From a bacterium (GTDB lineage Bacteria > Actinomycetota > Acidimicrobiia > Spongiisociales > Spongiisociaceae), in assembly GCA_028821235.1 (NCBI GenBank), contig JAPPGV010000023.1, positions 1 through 35,041 of the forward strand: a DNA stretch of 35,041 bases. Direction: 5' to 3'. The translations under genes were made by a program, and so were the position numbers. Below are positions 6,355 to 32,846 of this stretch, one piece after another (within the stretch, counting starts at the first letter, position 1; the number at the start of each line of letters is the position of its first letter). The notes under the pieces were generated by a model that saw nothing but the letters and a program-made list of their open reading frames with translations, had not been told where the DNA came from and made no database searches.

Positions 6355-7368
6355 ATGAAGGAGCACGCGGCAAGCCCCTCTCCGTCCGAGCACGCCCTGC
6401 TGTCGGTGAGGGATCTGGCGGTCGACTTCGAACTCGAAGGCGGCGTCCTTCGGGCGGTGGACCGTATCTCCTACGACGTCCGTCCAGGCGAGATAGTCGG
6501 GATCGTCGGAGAGTCCGGGTCGGGCAAGAGCGTTTCGGTCCTGGCGGTTCTCCGCTTGCTCAACGTCTACACGTCAGGAGCGAGCGTCACTGGCGAGGTG
6601 CTGTTCGAGGGCCGAGATCTCTTTGCCCTCACGGCCAAGCAGATGAGGGAGATTCGCGGCAAGGACATCACCCTGATCTTCCAGGATCCCTCTTCGTCAT
6701 GGCATCCAGTGTTGAGAGTCGGTCGCCAGGTGGCCGAAGTGAGCCTGGCTCACGGGAAGATGGGATCTGACCGTGTACGGCAACACGTGGAAGGCCTGTT
6801 CGAGTCTGTCGGCATCCCCAACCCTCGGGTCAGGTACGAGCAGTACCCCCACGAGTACTCGGGCGGGATGAAGCAGAGAGCCATGATCGCCATGGCCATA
6901 GCGAACAGGCCGAAGCTCTTGATCGCGGACGAGCCCACCACTGCTCTCGATGTCACGATCCAGTCACAAGTGCTGGAATTGCTGAGAAACGTGACCGCGG
7001 AAACGGGTGCTGCCCTCATCCTGATCTCGCACGACATAGGCGTGATAGCGGAGATGGCCGACCGTGTGATCGTGATGTATGGAGGACGGGTGATGGAGGA
7101 GGGCCCGGTGGAGCAGGTGCTGCTATCGCCGCGCCATCCATACACCAGGGGACTGCTGTCGAGCCTGCCGCAGATCGACCAGGAGATGTCACGATTGCCG
7201 ACCATCCCCGGGTCTCCGCCTCAGATGTTCCAAGCACTGGCCGGCTGTCCCTTTGAACCGCGGTGCGGGCTCTCCGGGGACCGTGATCCTTGCCGGGAAT
7301 CACGGCCGTCCCTGAGACAGTGCGGCGAGGACCAGTTCTCGGCGTGCCATTTCTTCGAGGAGCTTTAA
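6355..7368 (+). CDS. Peptide-type ABC importer ATPase (DppD/OppD-like)
   Basis: This 337-residue nucleotide-binding subunit of the importer energises transport at the inner face of the membrane. It shows Walker A GESGSGKS at 52-59, Q-loop Gln110, signature YSGGMKQR at 168-175, Walker B LLIADEP at 188-194 and H-loop His226. A C-terminal oligopeptide/dipeptide domain is rich in cysteines (CPFEPRC...C...C...C), typical of the DppD/OppD class. It follows the binding-protein gene by 55 bases on the same strand, with GAGAAGG upstream as a moderate ribosome-binding site. The stop codon TAA touches the left arm of a palindromic insert that separates it from the second ATPase gene. Confidence 0.94.
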   Translation: MKEHAASPSPSEHALLSVRDLAVDFELEGGVLRAVDRISYDVRPGEIVGIVGESGSGKSVSVLAVLRLLNVYTSGASVTGEVLFEGRDLFALTAKQMREIRGKDITLIFQDPSSSWHPVLRVGRQVAEVSLAHGKMGSDRVRQHVEGLFESVGIPNPRVRYEQYPHEYSGGMKQRAMIAMAIANRPKLLIADEPTTALDVTIQSQVLELLRNVTAETGAALILISHDIGVIAEMADRVIVMYGGRVMEEGPVEQVLLSPRHPYTRGLLSSLPQIDQEMSRLPTIPGSPPQMFQALAGCPFEPRCGLSGDRDPCRESRPSLRQCGEDQFSACHFFEEL

Positions 7369-7534
7369 GTGGTCTGGCTGCGAAACAGCTTGGTGTGTTC
7401 TGGCGGTCATCGGTGTCCCGTCGCTGCGTTCCGCTTCCTCAACGTACCGCTGCGGGTACGCCTTCGTCAGCGGGCCTTGCGAGGAACACCGCTGCCGACT
7501 CCATACCACACCGCCATTCCGCAGACAGACCACT
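7368..7534. repeat. 167-bp palindromic insert between the two ATPase genes (MITE-like)
   Basis: The ends form inverted repeats: AGTGGTCTGGCTGCG at 7368-7382 and its complement CGCAGACAGACCACT at 7520-7534 match at 14 of 15 positions. Weaker pairing continues inward (GGTGTGTTCTGG against GGTGTGGTATGG). A small internal hairpin, CGTACC-GCTGCG-GGTACG, lies at 7443-7460. No protein gene is supported. Other genes of this operon overlap or lie close together, so this looks like an inserted non-autonomous element or a folded RNA. A target-site duplication could not be established. Confidence 0.55.
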
Positions 7535-7549
7535 AGGAAGTACGTGCCG

Positions 7550-8611
7550 ATGGAACGTCGCTCGTATCGCGCTGAAGCAGTCAACGGGGAGGCCGGTCCG
7601 CGCTCGGGTTCCCCGTTGCTGACTGTAAGGGACCTGACGAAGACGTTTCCCGTGCGTAAGGGCCTTTTCGGACGCCCGGAGGCGATGATCCAGGCGGTCA
7701 CCGATGTGAGCTTCTCGATCTATCCCGGGCAGACGCTCGGGCTGGTCGGCGAGTCCGGTAGCGGTAAGTCCACCACGGCGCTGTGCGTAACCCGGCTACT
7801 GGACGTCACGTCCGGCAGCGTCGTGTTTGACGGCCAGGAGTTGTCCGATCTGTCTCGGCGCAGCATGCGGCCCATCCGCCGGAACATGCAGATCGTCTTC
7901 CAGGATCCGTACTCGTCCCTCGACCCCAGGATGACGGTGAAGGAGATCATTGCGGAGCCTCTGCGGGTGTATGGCTCCTACGGTCGTAGAGGGCAGGGTG
8001 AGAGAAAGGTACATGAGCTGCTGGAGAAAGTGGGGATGAATGCCGCCGACGCGGCCAGGTTCCCCCACGAGTTCTCCGGTGGGCAGAGACAGCGCATCAG
8101 CATTGCCCGGGCACTGGCCCTCGAGCCAAGGCTCCTAGTCCTTGATGAGCCCGTCAGCGCTCTGGATGTCTCGGTCCAGGCACAGGTTACGAACCTGCTC
8201 CGGGACCTCCAGGAGGCTATGGGGCTGGCCTATCTGTTCATCGCCCACGATCTCGCGGTCGTGCATCATGTGTCCGATTGGATCGCGGTGATGTACCTGG
8301 GCAAGATCGTCGAGTACGGCACCGTGGACCAGGTGTTCAGCCAGCCGACCCACCCCTACACCCAGGCCCTGCTGAGCGCGATACCGAGTGCGGACCCGAC
8401 CAGGGCCGACGACCTCGATGAGCGGATCATCCTCACCGGGGAGATACCCGACCCCGCCGACCCGCCCTCGGGATGCCGGTTCCGTACGCGCTGCTGGAAG
8501 GCGGAGCCGACCTGTGAAGAGGTTTCTCCGGAACTGGTGGACACCCTTGGGGTCGGGCACCCGAGCGCCTGCCACTTCCCGGAACTGCAGGCGAGCGGGG
8601 TCCACCGATGA
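7550..8611 (+). CDS. Peptide-type ABC importer ATPase (DppF/OppF-like)
   Basis: This 353-residue second ATPase of the importer forms a heterodimer with the DppD-like subunit. Motifs are Walker A GESGSGKS at 67-74, Q-loop Gln118, signature FSGGQ at 175-179, Walker B LLVLDEP at 195-201 and His233. The C-terminal oligopeptide domain has the usual Cys cluster (CRFRTRC...C...C). The ATG at 7550 is preferred over the GTG at 7544 because AGGAAG at 7535-7540 is then about 9 bases away. That site lies directly after the right arm of the palindromic insert. The gene ends in an ATGA overlap with the first permease gene, indicating coupled translation. Confidence 0.94.
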   Translation: MERRSYRAEAVNGEAGPRSGSPLLTVRDLTKTFPVRKGLFGRPEAMIQAVTDVSFSIYPGQTLGLVGESGSGKSTTALCVTRLLDVTSGSVVFDGQELSDLSRRSMRPIRRNMQIVFQDPYSSLDPRMTVKEIIAEPLRVYGSYGRRGQGERKVHELLEKVGMNAADAARFPHEFSGGQRQRISIARALALEPRLLVLDEPVSALDVSVQAQVTNLLRDLQEAMGLAYLFIAHDLAVVHHVSDWIAVMYLGKIVEYGTVDQVFSQPTHPYTQALLSAIPSADPTRADDLDERIILTGEIPDPADPPSGCRFRTRCWKAEPTCEEVSPELVDTLGVGHPSACHFPELQASGVHR

Positions 8612-9546
8612 CCCGCTTCATCGTCAATCGCATAGCGCAGATCATCCCGTTGCTCATCCTGTTGAGCGTTTTCATCTTCACGATGATGCACTTGGCGCCC
8701 GGCAGTCCCGAGAGCTTCTATCTCACCGACCACTACACCGAAGAGCAGGCCGAAGCAGTGCGCGAGCAACTCGGGCTCAACGAACCTCCCGTCAGGCAGT
8801 ACCTCACCTGGCTGGGGGCCGCGATACGTGGTGACTTCGGGCAGACGTTCACATACGGGGTCACCGTCACGGAGGTGATTCTCGCCCGGCTGTGGCCCAC
8901 CCTGCAGTTGCAGCTGCTCGCGCTGACCGTTTCGGTAGTGATCGCCCTCCCGGCCGGCGTGATCTCCGCACTCAGACGAAACTCGAGACTCGATCATTCG
9001 ATAACGACCGCAACCCTGTTCGGTCTGTCGATGCCTGACTTCTGGTTCGCCCTGTTGCTGATGCTGACGTTCTCCGTACACCTGGGATGGCTACCCGCTT
9101 TCGGAACCGGAAGCGAAGGCCTCTTCGCGGCCCCCCTCAACCTTGTCATGCCGGTGGCCGTCCTAGGGCTCTCCGCAGTGCCCTGGTATGCCCGGGTTGT
9201 GCGATCGTCCATGCTGGATTCCCTGGCGGAGGACTACATCCTGACCGCCGCGGCCAAGGGCTTGACTCCGGCCCGGATCACGATCCATCACGCTCTCCGC
9301 ATAGCCATTCTCCCCCTGGTCACCGTCATCGGTCTGTCCATGGCGCGGGTGCTCTCGGGCGTGATCGTGGTGGAGACGATCTTCGTCTGGCCGGGGTTGG
9401 GCCAACTGGCGTGGGAGGCTGTGATCCGCCAGGACTATCCCGTCATCCTGGGCCTGACCATCTTCACGGCCGCGTTCGTAATGATCTTCAGCCTGATCGT
9501 CGACATCATTTACACCTACATCGATCCGAGGATTCGTTATGTCTAG
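8608..9546 (+). CDS. Peptide-type ABC importer permease (DppB/OppB-like)
   Basis: This 312-residue inner-membrane subunit forms half of the importer channel. The N-terminal membrane segment after residues TRFIVNRIAQ, the HLAPGSP block, and the EAA-type loop (ARVVRSSMLDSLAEDY, then AAAKGL) are all typical of the BPD_transp_1 class, as is the conserved C-terminal end IYTYIDPRIRYV. About six hydrophobic segments are visible. It starts inside the previous stop (ATGA) and overlaps the next gene by 8 bases, so the ATPase and permease genes form one translation-coupled unit. Confidence 0.94.
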   Translation: MTRFIVNRIAQIIPLLILLSVFIFTMMHLAPGSPESFYLTDHYTEEQAEAVREQLGLNEPPVRQYLTWLGAAIRGDFGQTFTYGVTVTEVILARLWPTLQLQLLALTVSVVIALPAGVISALRRNSRLDHSITTATLFGLSMPDFWFALLLMLTFSVHLGWLPAFGTGSEGLFAAPLNLVMPVAVLGLSAVPWYARVVRSSMLDSLAEDYILTAAAKGLTPARITIHHALRIAILPLVTVIGLSMARVLSGVIVVETIFVWPGLGQLAWEAVIRQDYPVILGLTIFTAAFVMIFSLIVDIIYTYIDPRIRYV

Positions 9547-10438
9547 CGAGCGCTCAGCGAGTCCAGCGACTTCCACTCACGGCCAGGTACGCTCCCGGAG
9601 CCGGTTCAAGCGAATCGCCTGGCGGTACAGCCGGAACCGGCCGGCGGTCGTGGCGATGGCCTTTCTCACCATTCTCATCATCGTTGCGATACTTGCGCCG
9701 CTGGCAGCTCCGTACGATCCTGTGGTCCAGGACCTGCCGAGGCGCTTGGAGCCCCCGAGCAGAGAGTTCTTGTTGGGGACCGACGCCTTCGGCCGAGACA
9801 GCTTCAGCCGGATGATTTACGGCGCCCGGGTGTCGCTCCTTGTCGCCTTCGCCACGGTGGCACTGATCATCCTCATAGGTACCACGGTCGGCATCCTCGC
9901 GGCCTACTACCGCTTGCTCGATGGTCCTTTGATGCGGATTGTCGACCTGCTGATGGCGATGCCTCCGCTGTTCCTCCTGATCATGCTCGTGGCCCTGTTC
10001 GGCGCCAGCACGGGACATACGGTGCTGTTCATTGCCCTGAGCTACTGGCGGACCACCGCCCGGTATGTGAGAGGCCAGGTCTTATCGCTCAAACATAGGG
10101 ACTATGTGAAGGCCGCTCTGGCTTCTGGCGCGTCCGATGTCCGGATATTCGTGCGCCACATCATCCCCAACATCTCCGACGGGCTGATCGTGATCGCCAC
10201 GCTCTCGATCTCCTTCGTCATCCTGCTCGAGACGGCCCTGAGCTACCTGGGCCTGGGAGCACAGCCGCCGACTCCGAGTTGGGGCGGGATGCTCGCCGAC
10301 GGGAGGCAATACCTGCAGATCTCATGGTGGTTGACGGTCTTCCCGGGTCTGGCGATCTTCCTCACGGTGATGGCCTTCAACTTCGTCGGTGACGGCCTGC
10401 GCGACGCCTTCGACAGCAGATCCGCAAAGGCGGTGTGA
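9539..10438 (+). CDS. Peptide-type ABC importer permease (DppC/OppC-like)
   Basis: This 299-residue inner-membrane partner of the DppB-like permease has a Ser/Arg-rich cytoplasmic N-terminus of about 35 residues, which precedes the first membrane helix. DppC hallmarks follow: APYDP, LLGTDAFGRDSFSR, the EAA loop (RGQVLSLKHRDYVKAALASG) and LSYLGLGAQPPTPSWG. The start ATG at 9539 lies 8 bases inside the upstream gene. The gene ends at 10438, and a PPOX-type gene begins 63 bases later on the same strand, which may belong to the same transcript. No terminator hairpin was seen between them. Confidence 0.94.
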   Translation: MSSERSASPATSTHGQVRSRSRFKRIAWRYSRNRPAVVAMAFLTILIIVAILAPLAAPYDPVVQDLPRRLEPPSREFLLGTDAFGRDSFSRMIYGARVSLLVAFATVALIILIGTTVGILAAYYRLLDGPLMRIVDLLMAMPPLFLLIMLVALFGASTGHTVLFIALSYWRTTARYVRGQVLSLKHRDYVKAALASGASDVRIFVRHIIPNISDGLIVIATLSISFVILLETALSYLGLGAQPPTPSWGGMLADGRQYLQISWWLTVFPGLAIFLTVMAFNFVGDGLRDAFDSRSAKAV

Positions 10439-26899: not shown

Positions 26900-26942
26900 G
26901 CCGGGCAGCGAACGGTTGCCTGATGATCGGAGTTCTACCGCT

Positions 26943-28616
26943 ATGAGACCCGACCCGATCACGATCGAGATCCTCCGGAACGCCTTCATCATGGCGGCGG
27001 AGGAGATGAACGCGGCGCTGATCCGCTCCGCCTACACGCCGGTCATCTACGAGTCGAAGGACTGCGCGGTGGCGCTCATCGACAGCAAGCACCGGGTGCT
27101 GGGCCAGTCCTCCGGGGTGCCGCTGTTCCTGGGCAACCTGGAGGCCTGCACCCTCGCCACCGAGGAGATGTTCGGGCGGTCCGTATGGGGCCAGGGCGAC
27201 ATCTGGATCATGAACGACGCCTACCTGACCGGCACCCACATGCACGACGTTACGGTCTTCGCCCCCATCTTCTACCAGGGCGACCTGGCCGGCTTCGCCG
27301 CCTCCCGGGCCCACTGGCTGGACATCGGCGCCAAGGACCCGGGAGTGCCGATGGATTCGGTCGAGATCTTCCAGGAGGGGGTCCGCCTGCCCCCCACCAT
27401 GGTGGTGAGAAACGGCGAGCCCGTGCAGGACATCTGGGACATCATCGAGGCCAACGTGCGCTTCCCCCGCTCCGCCATCGGCGACATGACCGCCCAGTTC
27501 GCGGTGGCTTCGATCGGCGAGCACCGCCTGGGAGCCCTCTTCGACCGCTACGGGCGGGACACCGTGGAGGCTGCCGCCGAGGAGATATTCCGCCAGAGCG
27601 AGCAGCTCGACCGCGAAGCCATCCGAGCCATCCCCGACGGCGAGTACACCGCCGAGGGCTTCCTGGACTCCGACGGGGTGGGGGACGACCCGGTCCGCAT
27701 CAAGGTCAGGATCAACGTGGAGGGCGAGCGCCTGCTCTTCGACCTCACCGAGGCCGACGGACCCGGCCAGGGCCCCATCAACTGCGGGGCCGTGCAGACC
27801 CTGTCCGCCTGCCGCTTGGCGTTCAAGTACCTGTTCAACTCCCATCACCCCGTCAACGGAGGCACGTTCCGGCCCCTGGAGGTGAAGACCCGGCCCGGAT
27901 CGATCCTCCATGCCCGGTCCCCGGCCGCCTGCCAGTTCTACTTCACCCCCCTGGGCCTGATGATCGACCTGATCTGCTCCGCCCTCTCGCCCGCCCTGGC
28001 CGAGACGGTCCCCGCCGCCCACTACGGCGACGGCATGATCTTCCAGTTCACCGGCATCAACCCTCGGACCGACGACCTGTTCCTCGACAACGAACCGCAC
28101 GTGGGCGGATGGGGAGCATCGCAGGGCCGCGACGGGGAGGACGGGATGATCTGGACCCTGTCGGGCAACTTCCACGACATGCCCATCGAGGTGTTCGAGT
28201 CCAAGTTCCCCGCCCGGATCACCGAGTACGGGTACCGCCAGGACTCGGCCGGGCCCGGCAAGTGGCGGGGAGGCAACGGCATCATCCGCGAGTACACGAT
28301 GACCACCGACACCGAGATGAGCCTCTGGTTCGAACGCTCCGGCAACCCCGCCTGGGGCCTCTTCGAAGGCAAGGCCGGAGCTCCCCCCGAGGTAGTAATC
28401 AACCCCGGAACCCCCAGGGAGACCCGCCGCCTCAAGACCAACCTCATGCCCCTCCGCATTGGAGATGTCGTCCGCTGCTACACGGGCGGCGGAGGCGGCT
28501 ACGGCAACCCCCTGGACCGCGACCCCCAGGCCGTGGAAGCCGACCTGGCCGACGGCCACATCTCCTCCGACTACGCCCGACGCCACCACCGCTACAACAC
28601 TCGGAAAGCCACCTAG
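26943..28616 (+). CDS. hyuB: Hydantoinase/oxoprolinase subunit B
   Basis: This 557-residue HyuB subunit is the catalytic partner of HyuA in opening cyclic amides. Diagnostic blocks are DPITIEILRNAF at the start, AALIRSAYTPVIYESKDCAVAL, GDIWIMNDAYLTGTHMHDV (with conserved Asp and His residues), HWLDIGAKDPG and the C-terminal RCYTGGGGGYGNPLDRDP. The length matches the usual 520-580. The ATG at 26943 has GGAG about 10 bases upstream; longer in-frame starts add no family sequence. It is separated from hyuA by hicBA and a small gene instead of following directly, as is usual. Confidence 0.94.
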   Translation: MRPDPITIEILRNAFIMAAEEMNAALIRSAYTPVIYESKDCAVALIDSKHRVLGQSSGVPLFLGNLEACTLATEEMFGRSVWGQGDIWIMNDAYLTGTHMHDVTVFAPIFYQGDLAGFAASRAHWLDIGAKDPGVPMDSVEIFQEGVRLPPTMVVRNGEPVQDIWDIIEANVRFPRSAIGDMTAQFAVASIGEHRLGALFDRYGRDTVEAAAEEIFRQSEQLDREAIRAIPDGEYTAEGFLDSDGVGDDPVRIKVRINVEGERLLFDLTEADGPGQGPINCGAVQTLSACRLAFKYLFNSHHPVNGGTFRPLEVKTRPGSILHARSPAACQFYFTPLGLMIDLICSALSPALAETVPAAHYGDGMIFQFTGINPRTDDLFLDNEPHVGGWGASQGRDGEDGMIWTLSGNFHDMPIEVFESKFPARITEYGYRQDSAGPGKWRGGNGIIREYTMTTDTEMSLWFERSGNPAWGLFEGKAGAPPEVVINPGTPRETRRLKTNLMPLRIGDVVRCYTGGGGGYGNPLDRDPQAVEADLADGHISSDYARRHHRYNTRKAT

Positions 28617-29454: not shown

Positions 29455-29596
29455 GACCGATGCTCTCGCTGGCGAAATCCTAGCCAGGGGCACCCGGCCC
29501 CTCCCGGAGGCCTGATCCCCCTTGCTTACTGCCGCGGCCGGATGGATCTGCCCCAGGGGTAGGGTGGAAGCCGTGCTTGGATGTGTTGCCGTCCCG

Positions 29597-30493
29597 ATGC
29601 GCCGCCCGGGGCAGGGTGTGGGGCAGGGATCAGCCGGACTGCGCCCCGCCCGCCGCCGGATCTCAGCCTCTGACGGTGCAGGACTCAGCGCCATCGTGTG
29701 GCCCGGTTCTCGCCGCACCGGGTTCCTGCTGGTCCATGGCCTCTCGTCCAACGCCCGGTTGTGGGACGACGTCGCCGGACACCTGGCGGCTAACGGCTAT
29801 CCCGTAGCGGCGGTGGATCAGCGTTCCCATGGACGATCCGACCGGGTGGATGGCCCGTTCAACTTCGCGACCCTGGCCGACGACCTGGCGGCGGTGATCG
29901 AAGCGGTCTTCGCCCCGGAGACGGCGGTGGTAGCGGCCGGACAATCCCTGGGCGGCAACGTGGTCGTGGAGTTGGCCCGCCGGCATCCCCGGAAGGTGGC
30001 CGGGGCGGCGTTCATCGACGGGGGCTTCATCACCCTGAGCGACCTTTTCCCCGACTGGGAGACGGCTCTGGCCGAACTGACACCCCCCTCGTTCGAGGGC
30101 CTCACCCCGGCCGTCCTTGAGAGGAGGCTGCGGGAAGGTCACCCGGACTGGCCCGAGAGCGGCATCAGGGGGCAGATGGCCAACTTCGCCACGGCTCCTG
30201 ACGGGACCCTGCGCCCCCACCTGGCCAGGGAGCACCACTTGATGCTGCTGCGTGAGATGTGGGAGCACCGCCCGGCCGAAACGGCTCCGTTCGTGGAGTG
30301 CCCGGCGCTGGTCGTGGCCGTCCACGACTCCTCGCCGGCGGGGGCAATGAGGCGCAGGTCGGTCGACCGGTTCGTCCGACGGCTGCCGAGAGGGAGGCTG
30401 ATCCGGGTGGTGGCCGATCACGACCTCCACGCCCAGTACCCGCGCCGCACCGCCGGCTGGCTGGAGGAACTGGCCGGGGAGGCGATGCGTTGA
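29597..30493 (+). CDS. Alpha/beta-fold hydrolase
   Basis: This 298-residue hydrolase is probably cytoplasmic. It has the oxyanion motif VHGLS (residues 46-50), VDQRSHGRSD, the nucleophile elbow GQSLGG (Ser117), the acid Asp244 in VVAVHD, and the catalytic His275 (or His278) in VADHDLHAQYP. The start is uncertain: the ATG at 29597 is used, but GTG codons at 29564 and 29573 are in frame and the sequence AGGGTGGAAG sits among them. The first ~25 residues are Gly/Arg-rich and may not belong to the fold. It overlaps the next gene by TTGA. Substrate (ester, lactone or amide) not predictable. Confidence 0.87.
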   Translation: MRRPGQGVGQGSAGLRPARRRISASDGAGLSAIVWPGSRRTGFLLVHGLSSNARLWDDVAGHLAANGYPVAAVDQRSHGRSDRVDGPFNFATLADDLAAVIEAVFAPETAVVAAGQSLGGNVVVELARRHPRKVAGAAFIDGGFITLSDLFPDWETALAELTPPSFEGLTPAVLERRLREGHPDWPESGIRGQMANFATAPDGTLRPHLAREHHLMLLREMWEHRPAETAPFVECPALVVAVHDSSPAGAMRRRSVDRFVRRLPRGRLIRVVADHDLHAQYPRRTAGWLEELAGEAMR

Positions 30494-31674
30494 GCGCCGG
30501 CCGCCTCATACTGATGGGATCGGGAGAGACCTCCAACCGGCTGGTGGCCGCCCACCGCCTGGGCATCGAGGCGGCCCGCGCCCGGGAGGTGCTGGTGCTC
30601 GACACCCCCTACGGGTTCCAGGAGAACGCCGCCATCCTGTCGGAGCGGCTGACCGGCTTCTTCCGCACCAGCCTGGTAGTGGAGGCGGGAGTGGCCTCCT
30701 ACCGCTCCGCCCGCGCCGGACCGGTCGCCCTGGAACGGATGCTGGCTGCGGTGCGGCACGCCCGCTACGTGTTCGCCGGACCGGGCTCGCCGGGCTACGC
30801 CCTCGGGGTCTGGCGGGACACCGGGCTGGCCGCGGCCCTGCGCGACCTGCTCTCCGGCGGCGCCACCGTGACGCTGGCCTCCGCCGCGGCCCTGACCGCC
30901 GGGGTCAAGACCCTCCCCGTCTACGAGATATACAAGGTAGGAACCGACCTGGAATGGCTGGAGGGCTTGGACCTGGCCTCCCACCTCGGCTTGGAGGCGG
31001 TGGTCGTGCCCCACTGGAACAACACCGAGGGGCAGGGGTTCGACACCAGCCGCTGCTACATGGGCCGGCGCCGCTTCGAGATCCTGCGCGCCCAGCTCCC
31101 GGACGGGACGGGCGTGATCGGGGTGGACGAGCACACCGCCGCCATCATCGACTTCGGGAGAGGAACGCTGGACGTGCTCGGCGCCGGAGGAGTCACCCTG
31201 ACCGGCGCCGATGTCACCTTCCTCGGCGACGGCGCGACCATGCCCCTCGAGACCGTGCTGGATCTCCTCCAGAGCGACCCCGCCCCGGCACCCACCCCGA
31301 GCCCCGAGCCTCTGCCCGACTTCGCCGTCGCCCTGGCCTCCGGCTCGGCCGAAGACATCGCCCGAGCCCTGCTCGAGGCTGAGACCCTCGCCGCCACCGG
31401 GTCAACACCCGCGAGAGCGGCCCTGCGAGGCATGATCCTGGAGCTGTCCGAATTGGCGGTAGAAGGCCTGATAGACCCGGAAGAGCGCGTGGGAGGACAC
31501 GTCGACCTGCTGGTCGAGACGAGGGACCGCCAGCGAGCGGACAGACGCTGGGATGAAGCCGACCGGATCCGGGCGGGCCTCACCGCACTGGGGGTCACCC
31601 TCCAGGACACACCCGACGGAACCCACTGGACCCTGGAGGACACCGGCCGATCCGCCGCCAACCCGACCTCCTGA
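30490..31674 (+). CDS. S51-peptidase-like/type 1 glutamine-amidotransferase-like domain fused to cysteinyl-tRNA-synthetase-type C-terminal domain
   Basis: This 394-residue two-domain protein has an N-terminal part (about 1-258) that resembles the peptidase S51/cyanophycinase-like fold: LILMGSGET, FAGPGSPGYAL, a Ser131 elbow in TLASAAALTAG, VVPHWNNTEG and GVDEHTAAI. Pro/Ala-rich residues 262-275 form a linker. Residues 276-382 resemble the anticodon-side tail of cysteinyl-tRNA synthetase, ending RWDEADRIRAGLTALGV and LQDTPDGTHW (compare the family's WxxADxIRxxLxxxGxxxxDxPDGTxW). There is no HIGH/KMSKS catalytic domain, so it is not a synthetase. The start is a TTG overlapping the hydrolase stop (TTGA). 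Whether the Ser is catalytic and whether the tail binds tRNA are unknown. Confidence 0.82.
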   Translation: MSAGRLILMGSGETSNRLVAAHRLGIEAARAREVLVLDTPYGFQENAAILSERLTGFFRTSLVVEAGVASYRSARAGPVALERMLAAVRHARYVFAGPGSPGYALGVWRDTGLAAALRDLLSGGATVTLASAAALTAGVKTLPVYEIYKVGTDLEWLEGLDLASHLGLEAVVVPHWNNTEGQGFDTSRCYMGRRRFEILRAQLPDGTGVIGVDEHTAAIIDFGRGTLDVLGAGGVTLTGADVTFLGDGATMPLETVLDLLQSDPAPAPTPSPEPLPDFAVALASGSAEDIARALLEAETLAATGSTPARAALRGMILELSELAVEGLIDPEERVGGHVDLLVETRDRQRADRRWDEADRIRAGLTALGVTLQDTPDGTHWTLEDTGRSAANPTS

Positions 31675-31781: not shown

Positions 31782-32846
31782 CTAGCCGGCGGCCAGTTCC
31801 AGCATCCGTTCATACATGGCCCGGGCGTCGAAGCCGGGGTTGTCGCCGACCCAGTCGTCGACCACGCTGCGGGTGGCCTGTTTCCACTCGTCGAGTTGCT
31901 CATCGCCGAGCACGATCTTGATGATCCCGGCCTCTGCGTTCCGCTCGGCTGCGGTGATGCTGGCCCGGTCATAGAACCCGGCTGCGGCATCGGAAACGGT
32001 CCGAGCGGACACATCGTTGATGGCTGCCTGCTGGTCCGGTGCCAGGCCGTTCCAGGTGTCGAGGTTCATCACCAGGAACGATGCGAGGACCTAGCATCCA
32101 CACTCGGTGCCGCTCGCGATCACTTCGGTCAGGTTGTGGGTGGCCAGGGCCGTGTCGACCGTCAGCACACCGTCGATCTCGCCGGCGTCGATAGCGGCCC
32201 GCATGTCAGGAGCGGCCATGTTCACCGGGATGGCGCCAAGGGCTCTGATCACCTCGGCCTGTACCGGGCTGGGCGCCCGCAGGGTGAGCCCCGCCAGGTC
32301 CTCCACAGCCGACGCGACACCGTCCGCCAGCCACAGGTCACCCGGACCGGTAGTCCACAGACCCAGGACCTTCACGCCGGAGTACTCGCCGCGCAAGGCC
32401 TCGAACTCCTCGTACAAGACCCACAGTGCGGCGGTTCCTTCCGCGGCGCTGCCGAACACGAAGGGCATCTCAACCACGCCGGTGGCCGGGAAACGTCCCG
32501 GCGAGTACCCCTGCAGTGCCCATCCGATGTCCTGGCCGCCCGCGGCCACGTTCTCGTAGGTATCCGCCGCCGCGCTGAGAGCCTGCTCGGGATGGAACTC
32601 CACCGCCACGGTGTTGCCCGATGCTTCCCAGACGTCCTCCGCCCACGGGTCGAGGACCTGGACACGCACCGGATGATCAGCCGCGAACGGATACCCCAAG
32701 CTGAGCATCACCGGCTCGGAATCCTCCCCACCCGCACAGGCCGCCGCCACCACAGCCAACACCACCAGCACCACCAGGACCCGCCACCGATTATCTACGT
32801 CTCCGGAGACGTCCATTGGGACACGGGCGTCGACAGCGGTGTTCAC
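31782..32846 (-). pseudogene. TRAP-transporter DctP-type receptor lipoprotein, broken by an in-frame TAG and fused to a VapC-like start
   Basis: Reading leftward from a GTG at 32846, a lipoprotein signal (LAVVAAAC) and a DctP body (GYSPGRFPATGVVEMPFVFGSAAEG, DLAGLTLRAPSPVQAEVIRALGAIPVNMA) run to a TAG at 32091-32093 (codon 252). The same frame then continues for another ~100 codons with MNLDTWNGLAPDQQAAINDV, typical of the DctP C-terminus. Read-through gives 354 codons, close to full length, so the lesion is a single nonsense codon or a sequencing error. The first ~16 residues (MNTAVDARVPMDVSGD) look like a VapC/PIN start, not a signal peptide. GTG overlaps the vapB stop. No TRAP membrane subunits lie nearby. 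If functional, only the signal and body up to codon 251 would be made. Confidence 0.8.
32797..32812. other. 16-bp perfect palindrome at the VapC-stub/receptor junction
   Basis: ACGTCTCCGGAGACGT is perfectly self-complementary and sits exactly where the VapC-like N-terminus gives way to the receptor signal peptide. It could be a recombination scar, an operator for the receptor gene, or chance in GC-rich DNA. Confidence 0.3.

Follow-up and report, generated by a model that had tools for sequence, protein, structure and literature searches.

What would a serine hydrolase do with the tail of a cysteinyl-tRNA synthetase (CysRS)? This question is raised by a gene in the 35,041-nucleotide stretch of actinobacterial DNA analyzed here (hereafter, the window), which the initial annotation had read as an S51-like domain followed by a CysRS-type tail without any synthetase core (Table 1). 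Both halves of that reading were borne out, by the predicted fold and by a match to the Pfam family CysS_C, and the motifs it had named (MGSGET, a Ser131 elbow, and GVDEHTA) were all found in the protein, the elbow reading ASAAAL. The 394-codon frame starts with a TTG at position 30490 and overlaps the TGA stop of an upstream alpha/beta hydrolase gene as TTGA, as had also been claimed; close relatives share this start point, with beginnings such as MSAGRL. The S51 fold (residues 1–258) comes first and the C-terminal part of CysRS follows. The class I catalytic core of CysRS (HIGH/KMSKS) is absent: TIGR00435 (cysS) matches at profile positions 416–464 only, and residues 1–258 are taken up by the S51 fold. 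No model for the whole protein was found in Pfam or NCBIfam. The same genome encodes a separate CysRS, so the fusion protein is no substitute for it, and replacement of an absent synthetase was ruled out.

Table 1 Features of the fusion gene, its upstream neighbor, and the glycosyltransferase loci (window positions unless a locus is named).
Feature	Position	Strand	Basis
Upstream alpha/beta hydrolase, TTGA overlap; true start may be ATG 29597	29522..30493	+	Frame, Pfam, loci comparison
Fusion gene, 394 aa, S51-like hydrolase and CysRS C-terminal part	30490..31674	+	Frame, Pfam, alignment, structure model
S51-fold hydrolase domain, residues 1–258	30490..31263	+	VIA Z to 6nqc, cyanophycinases, and PepE; profile
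Ser131, predicted nucleophile, invariant	30880..30882	+	Alignment; pairs with Ser of CSAGAM in 6nqc
His175, predicted catalytic His, invariant	31012..31014	+	Alignment; pairs with PHF in 6nqc
GVDEHTA block, residues 211–217 within this stretch; His215 invariant, Asp213 98%, Glu214 92%	31123..31143	+	Alignment
Helical bundle homologous to the CysRS bundle preceding the anticodon domain, about residues 273–333	31306..31488	+	Profile alignments to 8qhp and 1li5; whole-model VIA to 1u0b 333–461
CysS_C anticodon-binding microdomain, residues 337–381	31498..31632	+	PF23493; tail-only model against 1u0b 407–461
G34-contact equivalents: Arg345 (R423), Arg349 (R427), Trp354 (W432), Asp358 (D436) of E. 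coli CysRS	31522..31563	+	Alignment mapping; contacts from PMC12684709
Glycosyltransferase loci with N-terminal CysS_C	L181:1451-2362; L182:723-1658 (-); L183:1717-2634; also L186, L187		

Structure prediction, one of the checks proposed for residues 1–258, gave a clear S51 fold. On an AlphaFold model of the window protein built with 36 sequences (mean pLDDT 90), VIA matched this region to 6nqc (Z 26.3), cyanophycinases (Z 23.7–24.1), and PepE (Z 20.5) over 207–230 residues; Foldseek also placed it in the S51 fold, and a profile matched 6nqc at E 3e-9. Against TIGR02069, the NCBIfam cyanophycinase model, the protein scored E 5e-5, below the cut-off, and the Pfam search gave no match of the protein itself to PF03575, a family matched by 22 of 36 relatives (best E 5e-8). 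The 36-sequence alignment shows no variation at Ser131, His175, and His215 and hardly any in the blocks GSGE, DTPYGFQEN, GPGSP, and PVYEIYK; Cys189 is invariant there, yet missing from some members in streamlined genomes. Glu146, Asp213, and Glu214 are candidates for the third catalytic member.

The fold over residues 1–258, the positions of Ser and His, and the GxDExTA block are shared with the S51 peptidases PepE (6a4r, 1fy2), CphB (3en0, 7uqw), and the acI-B1 actinobacterial peptidase (6nqc). Unlike these, the fusion protein reads SAA at the serine elbow, the Gly that follows Ser-Ala in the canonical SAG being lost, and has an insertion specific to its family after His175; the solved chains are also too short for a CysRS tail. 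The altered elbow and the insertion suggest that the substrate is probably other than that of PepE, cyanophycinase, and other known S51 enzymes.

Profile searches with the C-terminal segment returned the significant CysRS similarity that the initial reading needed. Pfam CysS_C (PF23493) matched residues 337–380 at E 3.6e-5 (24.2 bits; cut-off 23), and phmmer with the window protein against the PDB matched CysRS chains, which the family profile reached at E 1e-12 and a tail-only profile at E 3e-14, in an alignment that continues through the helical bundle. The tail is thus more than a microdomain: like the C-terminal domains of CysRS (1u0b, 1li5, 3tqo, 8qhp), it consists of a helical bundle and an anticodon-binding microdomain, and the difference from CysRS is that an S51 hydrolase replaces the class I synthetase core. 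In the whole model, VIA matched residues 273–383 to 1u0b, a CysRS–tRNA-Cys complex, at Z 8.1 over 106 residues with an rmsd of 14.6, a value suggesting that the bundle and the microdomain stand in the model at an angle unlike that in 1u0b. The tail modeled alone matched 1u0b 407–461 at Z 8.0 with an rmsd of 2.0 over 55 residues. A Z of 8 is modest by itself, and the argument for homology is carried by the profile match.

The single-sequence CysS_C score is modest as well, as would be expected of a chance resemblance or of an assembly or annotation artefact joining two genes. We consider this explanation practically negligible, and indeed refuted by the conserved architecture, as CysS_C is matched by 36 of 36 aligned relatives and the identical arrangement recurs in dozens of independent genomes, Streptomyces plasmids included. 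A scan limited to one genome for each species yielded 308 related stretches, of which 80 were kept. Because some tail peptides were part of its bait, linkage was tested apart with residues 1–258 only. This query matched 32 of 396 genomes of the phylum, and the tail was present in all 27 close full-length relatives that it found; the one tail-less match examined (L140) is an S51 protein that is only distantly related, and one further match was partial. The initial annotation had asked whether the two halves co-occur in other genomes; they do so in every close full-length relative examined, an obligate linkage that extends across several phyla.

Relatives occur in Acidimicrobiia, in other Actinomycetota (including Streptomyces and Nonomuraea), and in metagenome-assembled genomes labeled Chloroflexi, Dormibacteraeota, and Eremiobacterota. 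The full architecture is found in Streptomyces, on a Streptomycetaceae plasmid, and in Nonomuraea, and is called "hypothetical" where annotated. Of 296 genomes from the class, 109 gave a match. The gene is patchy, being present in about 10% of the sampled phylum genomes of good quality and, in full length, in 2 of 10 genomes of its own genus. In a streamlined genus (1.0–1.1 Mb genomes), it occurs in 33 of 42 genomes, including all 8 of the 8 that are at least 90% complete. Tail loss in short members (about 360 aa) was ruled out: in the four streamlined-genus proteins examined, the bundle is shrunken and the microdomain intact. No relatives of the fusion protein were found on viral contigs, hence nothing points to a phage gene. 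A microdomain tree of 48 columns, in which most forks are unresolved, was consistent with a single fusion origin (79/91 support) and a separate origin for the glycosyltransferases described below.

In the crystal structure of E. coli CysRS, R427, D436, and W432 contact the anticodon base G34, and R423 does so via water (PMC12684709). When 116 family tails, some of them near-duplicates, were aligned with this enzyme, Arg345, Arg349, Asp358, and Arg361 (R423, R427, D436, and R439) were conserved in 100% of the tails and Asp373 and Trp380 (D451 and W458) in 99%, the exception being one contig-end truncation; position 354 (W432) was always F, Y, or W. The fusion tails share these conserved residues with CysRS, and the pattern at the 423, 427, 432, and 436 equivalents matches that of the synthetase. 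Retention of the G34-contact residues favors a real tRNA-Cys-reading role over decoration; the tail would bind tRNA-Cys through the GCA anticodon. Judged from these residues, it is reasonably likely that the fusion protein binds tRNA-Cys, and action on tRNA-linked or Cys-linked substrates, as first proposed, is plausible.

The CysS_C microdomain is also found N-terminally on family-2 glycosyltransferases of other Actinomycetota, where it retains most of the invariant residues without the final Trp (the Trp458 equivalent). This is the main reason why our confidence is moderate: either the microdomain reads tRNA-Cys and has been reused for that purpose, or the invariant residues serve its structure and it is employed generically. 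In the latter case, the tail might be a generic RNA- or protein-binding or dimerization module, carried by an ordinary hydrolase of the S51 type that acts on peptides or small amides and has no role involving tRNA-Cys. That the glycosyltransferases are unrelated enzymes with no evident tRNA link fits such a module, as does the finding of no recurrent translation genes near the fusion loci. Nevertheless, the fusion tail keeps the whole C-terminal arrangement of CysRS, together with the Trp458 that the glycosyltransferases lack, and its RNA-contact positions are invariant while most other microdomain positions vary; we regard the generic module as rather unlikely.

Our preferred reading, held tentatively, is that of an S51-fold serine hydrolase that is guided to tRNA-Cys by the C-terminal half of a CysRS, which it has captured. 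The hydrolase would strip tRNA-Cys of an acyl or peptidyl group, such as an incorrect or damaged amino acid, and the alpha/beta hydrolase, where present, would act in the same pathway. By analogy with trans-editing, the bond cleaved would most likely be an ester or amide on tRNA-Cys, although the case for acyl or peptidyl removal is weaker than that for tRNA-Cys binding. The proposed logic, a separate hydrolase clearing a charged tRNA, resembles that of the free-standing trans-editing factors DTD, YbaK, and ProXp-ala, which serve other tRNAs and have hydrolase folds other than S51. Unlike the proposed fusion tail, ProXp-ala is described in an excerpt of PMC10164551 as reading the acceptor stem, not the anticodon.

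In favor of a tRNA-Cys hydrolase, we counted the retention of the tail despite a shrunken bundle and a ~1-Mb genome, and the precedent of MccG, an S51 enzyme cutting an aminoacyl-nucleotide amide according to excerpted text of PMC9239234. Counted against it were the SAA elbow, the insertion, the patchiness of the gene, and the coexistence of deacylases, and, against tRNA reading, the residue pattern of the glycosyltransferases, which may be structural. In the streamlined genus, DTD is present in 20 of 20 genomes and a YbaK-type protein in 19 of 20, leaving no obvious gap for the fusion protein to fill; a stand-in for missing deacylases was thus ruled out. It is less likely than not that the family is a new hydrolase class, an anticodon-reading deacylase or peptidyl-tRNA hydrolase for tRNA-Cys that would have arisen when an S51 fold acquired, in one ancient event, the C-terminal half of CysRS.

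MccG also bears on a reading in which tRNA-Cys is a regulator: the tail would sense free or charged tRNA-Cys and switch a peptidase or an aminoacyl-nucleotide hydrolase, which might, by analogy, destroy a cysteinyl-adenylate-like inhibitor of CysRS. As excerpted from PMC9239234, S51 enzymes of the MccG group, mostly from standalone genes, cut processed microcin C, a toxic aminoacyl-nucleotide; MccG has the S51 fold in common with the fusion protein but targets an isoaspartyl-nucleotide, and the excerpt mentions no tRNA-binding tail. While patchy distribution, including Streptomyces plasmids, would suit this reading, near-universal retention in complete ~1-Mb streamlined genomes would be unusual for a resistance gene, and no biosynthetic gene cluster was seen adjoining the fusion gene; we consider a regulatory role distinctly improbable.

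Action at the anticodon loop, where an amide or ester carried by a modified tRNA-Cys base would be hydrolyzed, would agree with anticodon binding by the CysRS homologue of the tail (PMC12684709) and with the cutting of amides by S51 enzymes. However, no tRNA modification gene was seen linked to the fusion gene. As we also know of no amino-acid-type modification in the loop of bacterial tRNA-Cys, we consider this very unlikely.

Literature searches, within the library covered, found no description of an S51–CysRS-tail fusion and no paper with both cyanophycinase and cysteinyl-tRNA synthetase; the protein is an undescribed, conserved union of two known domains. To our knowledge, CysRS is not generally credited with editing. 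A dedicated tRNA-Cys hydrolase, if true, would suggest that cysteine codons are subject to a quality-control or tRNA-dependent step, which, as far as we know, has not been looked for so far. Misincorporation of selenocysteine when selenium is in excess has been investigated as a source of toxicity (PMC3636253, in excerpt). The fusion protein is directly testable, as the gene occurs in culturable Streptomyces; Streptomyces sp. CA-256286, for example, has the homologue WP_207565538.1.

The suggested pairing with the alpha/beta hydrolase held in part. A homologue immediately precedes the fusion gene in 77 of 117 loci and was not found there in the others, and the streamlined genomes do not have it at that place; the hydrolase is a frequent but not required partner. 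Among proteins of solved structure, its closest relatives are esterases and other alpha/beta hydrolases, whose functions vary. The glycosyltransferase gene of L183 likewise overlaps an upstream alpha/beta hydrolase gene. No tRNA-Cys gene adjoined the fusion gene in 60 loci. In three separate loci, a tRNA-Glu gene begins no more than about 200 bases downstream from the fusion gene (L045:7479-7749, L052:7300-7373, and L094:7341-7616), followed in two of them by tRNA-Asp and tRNA-Phe. Downstream genes on the opposite strand recur in L105:8903-9769 (-) and about 30–40 similar actinobacterial loci, at about 7200–9800; one of them resembles, by eye, a zinc-type ABC transporter binding protein. Recurrence of downstream ABC-transporter-like genes is confined to a single group of loci. 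In the window itself, positions 26916–28616 resemble, by eye, a hydantoinase B/oxoprolinase-type protein, and 32091–32846 (-) a TRAP-type solute-binding protein.
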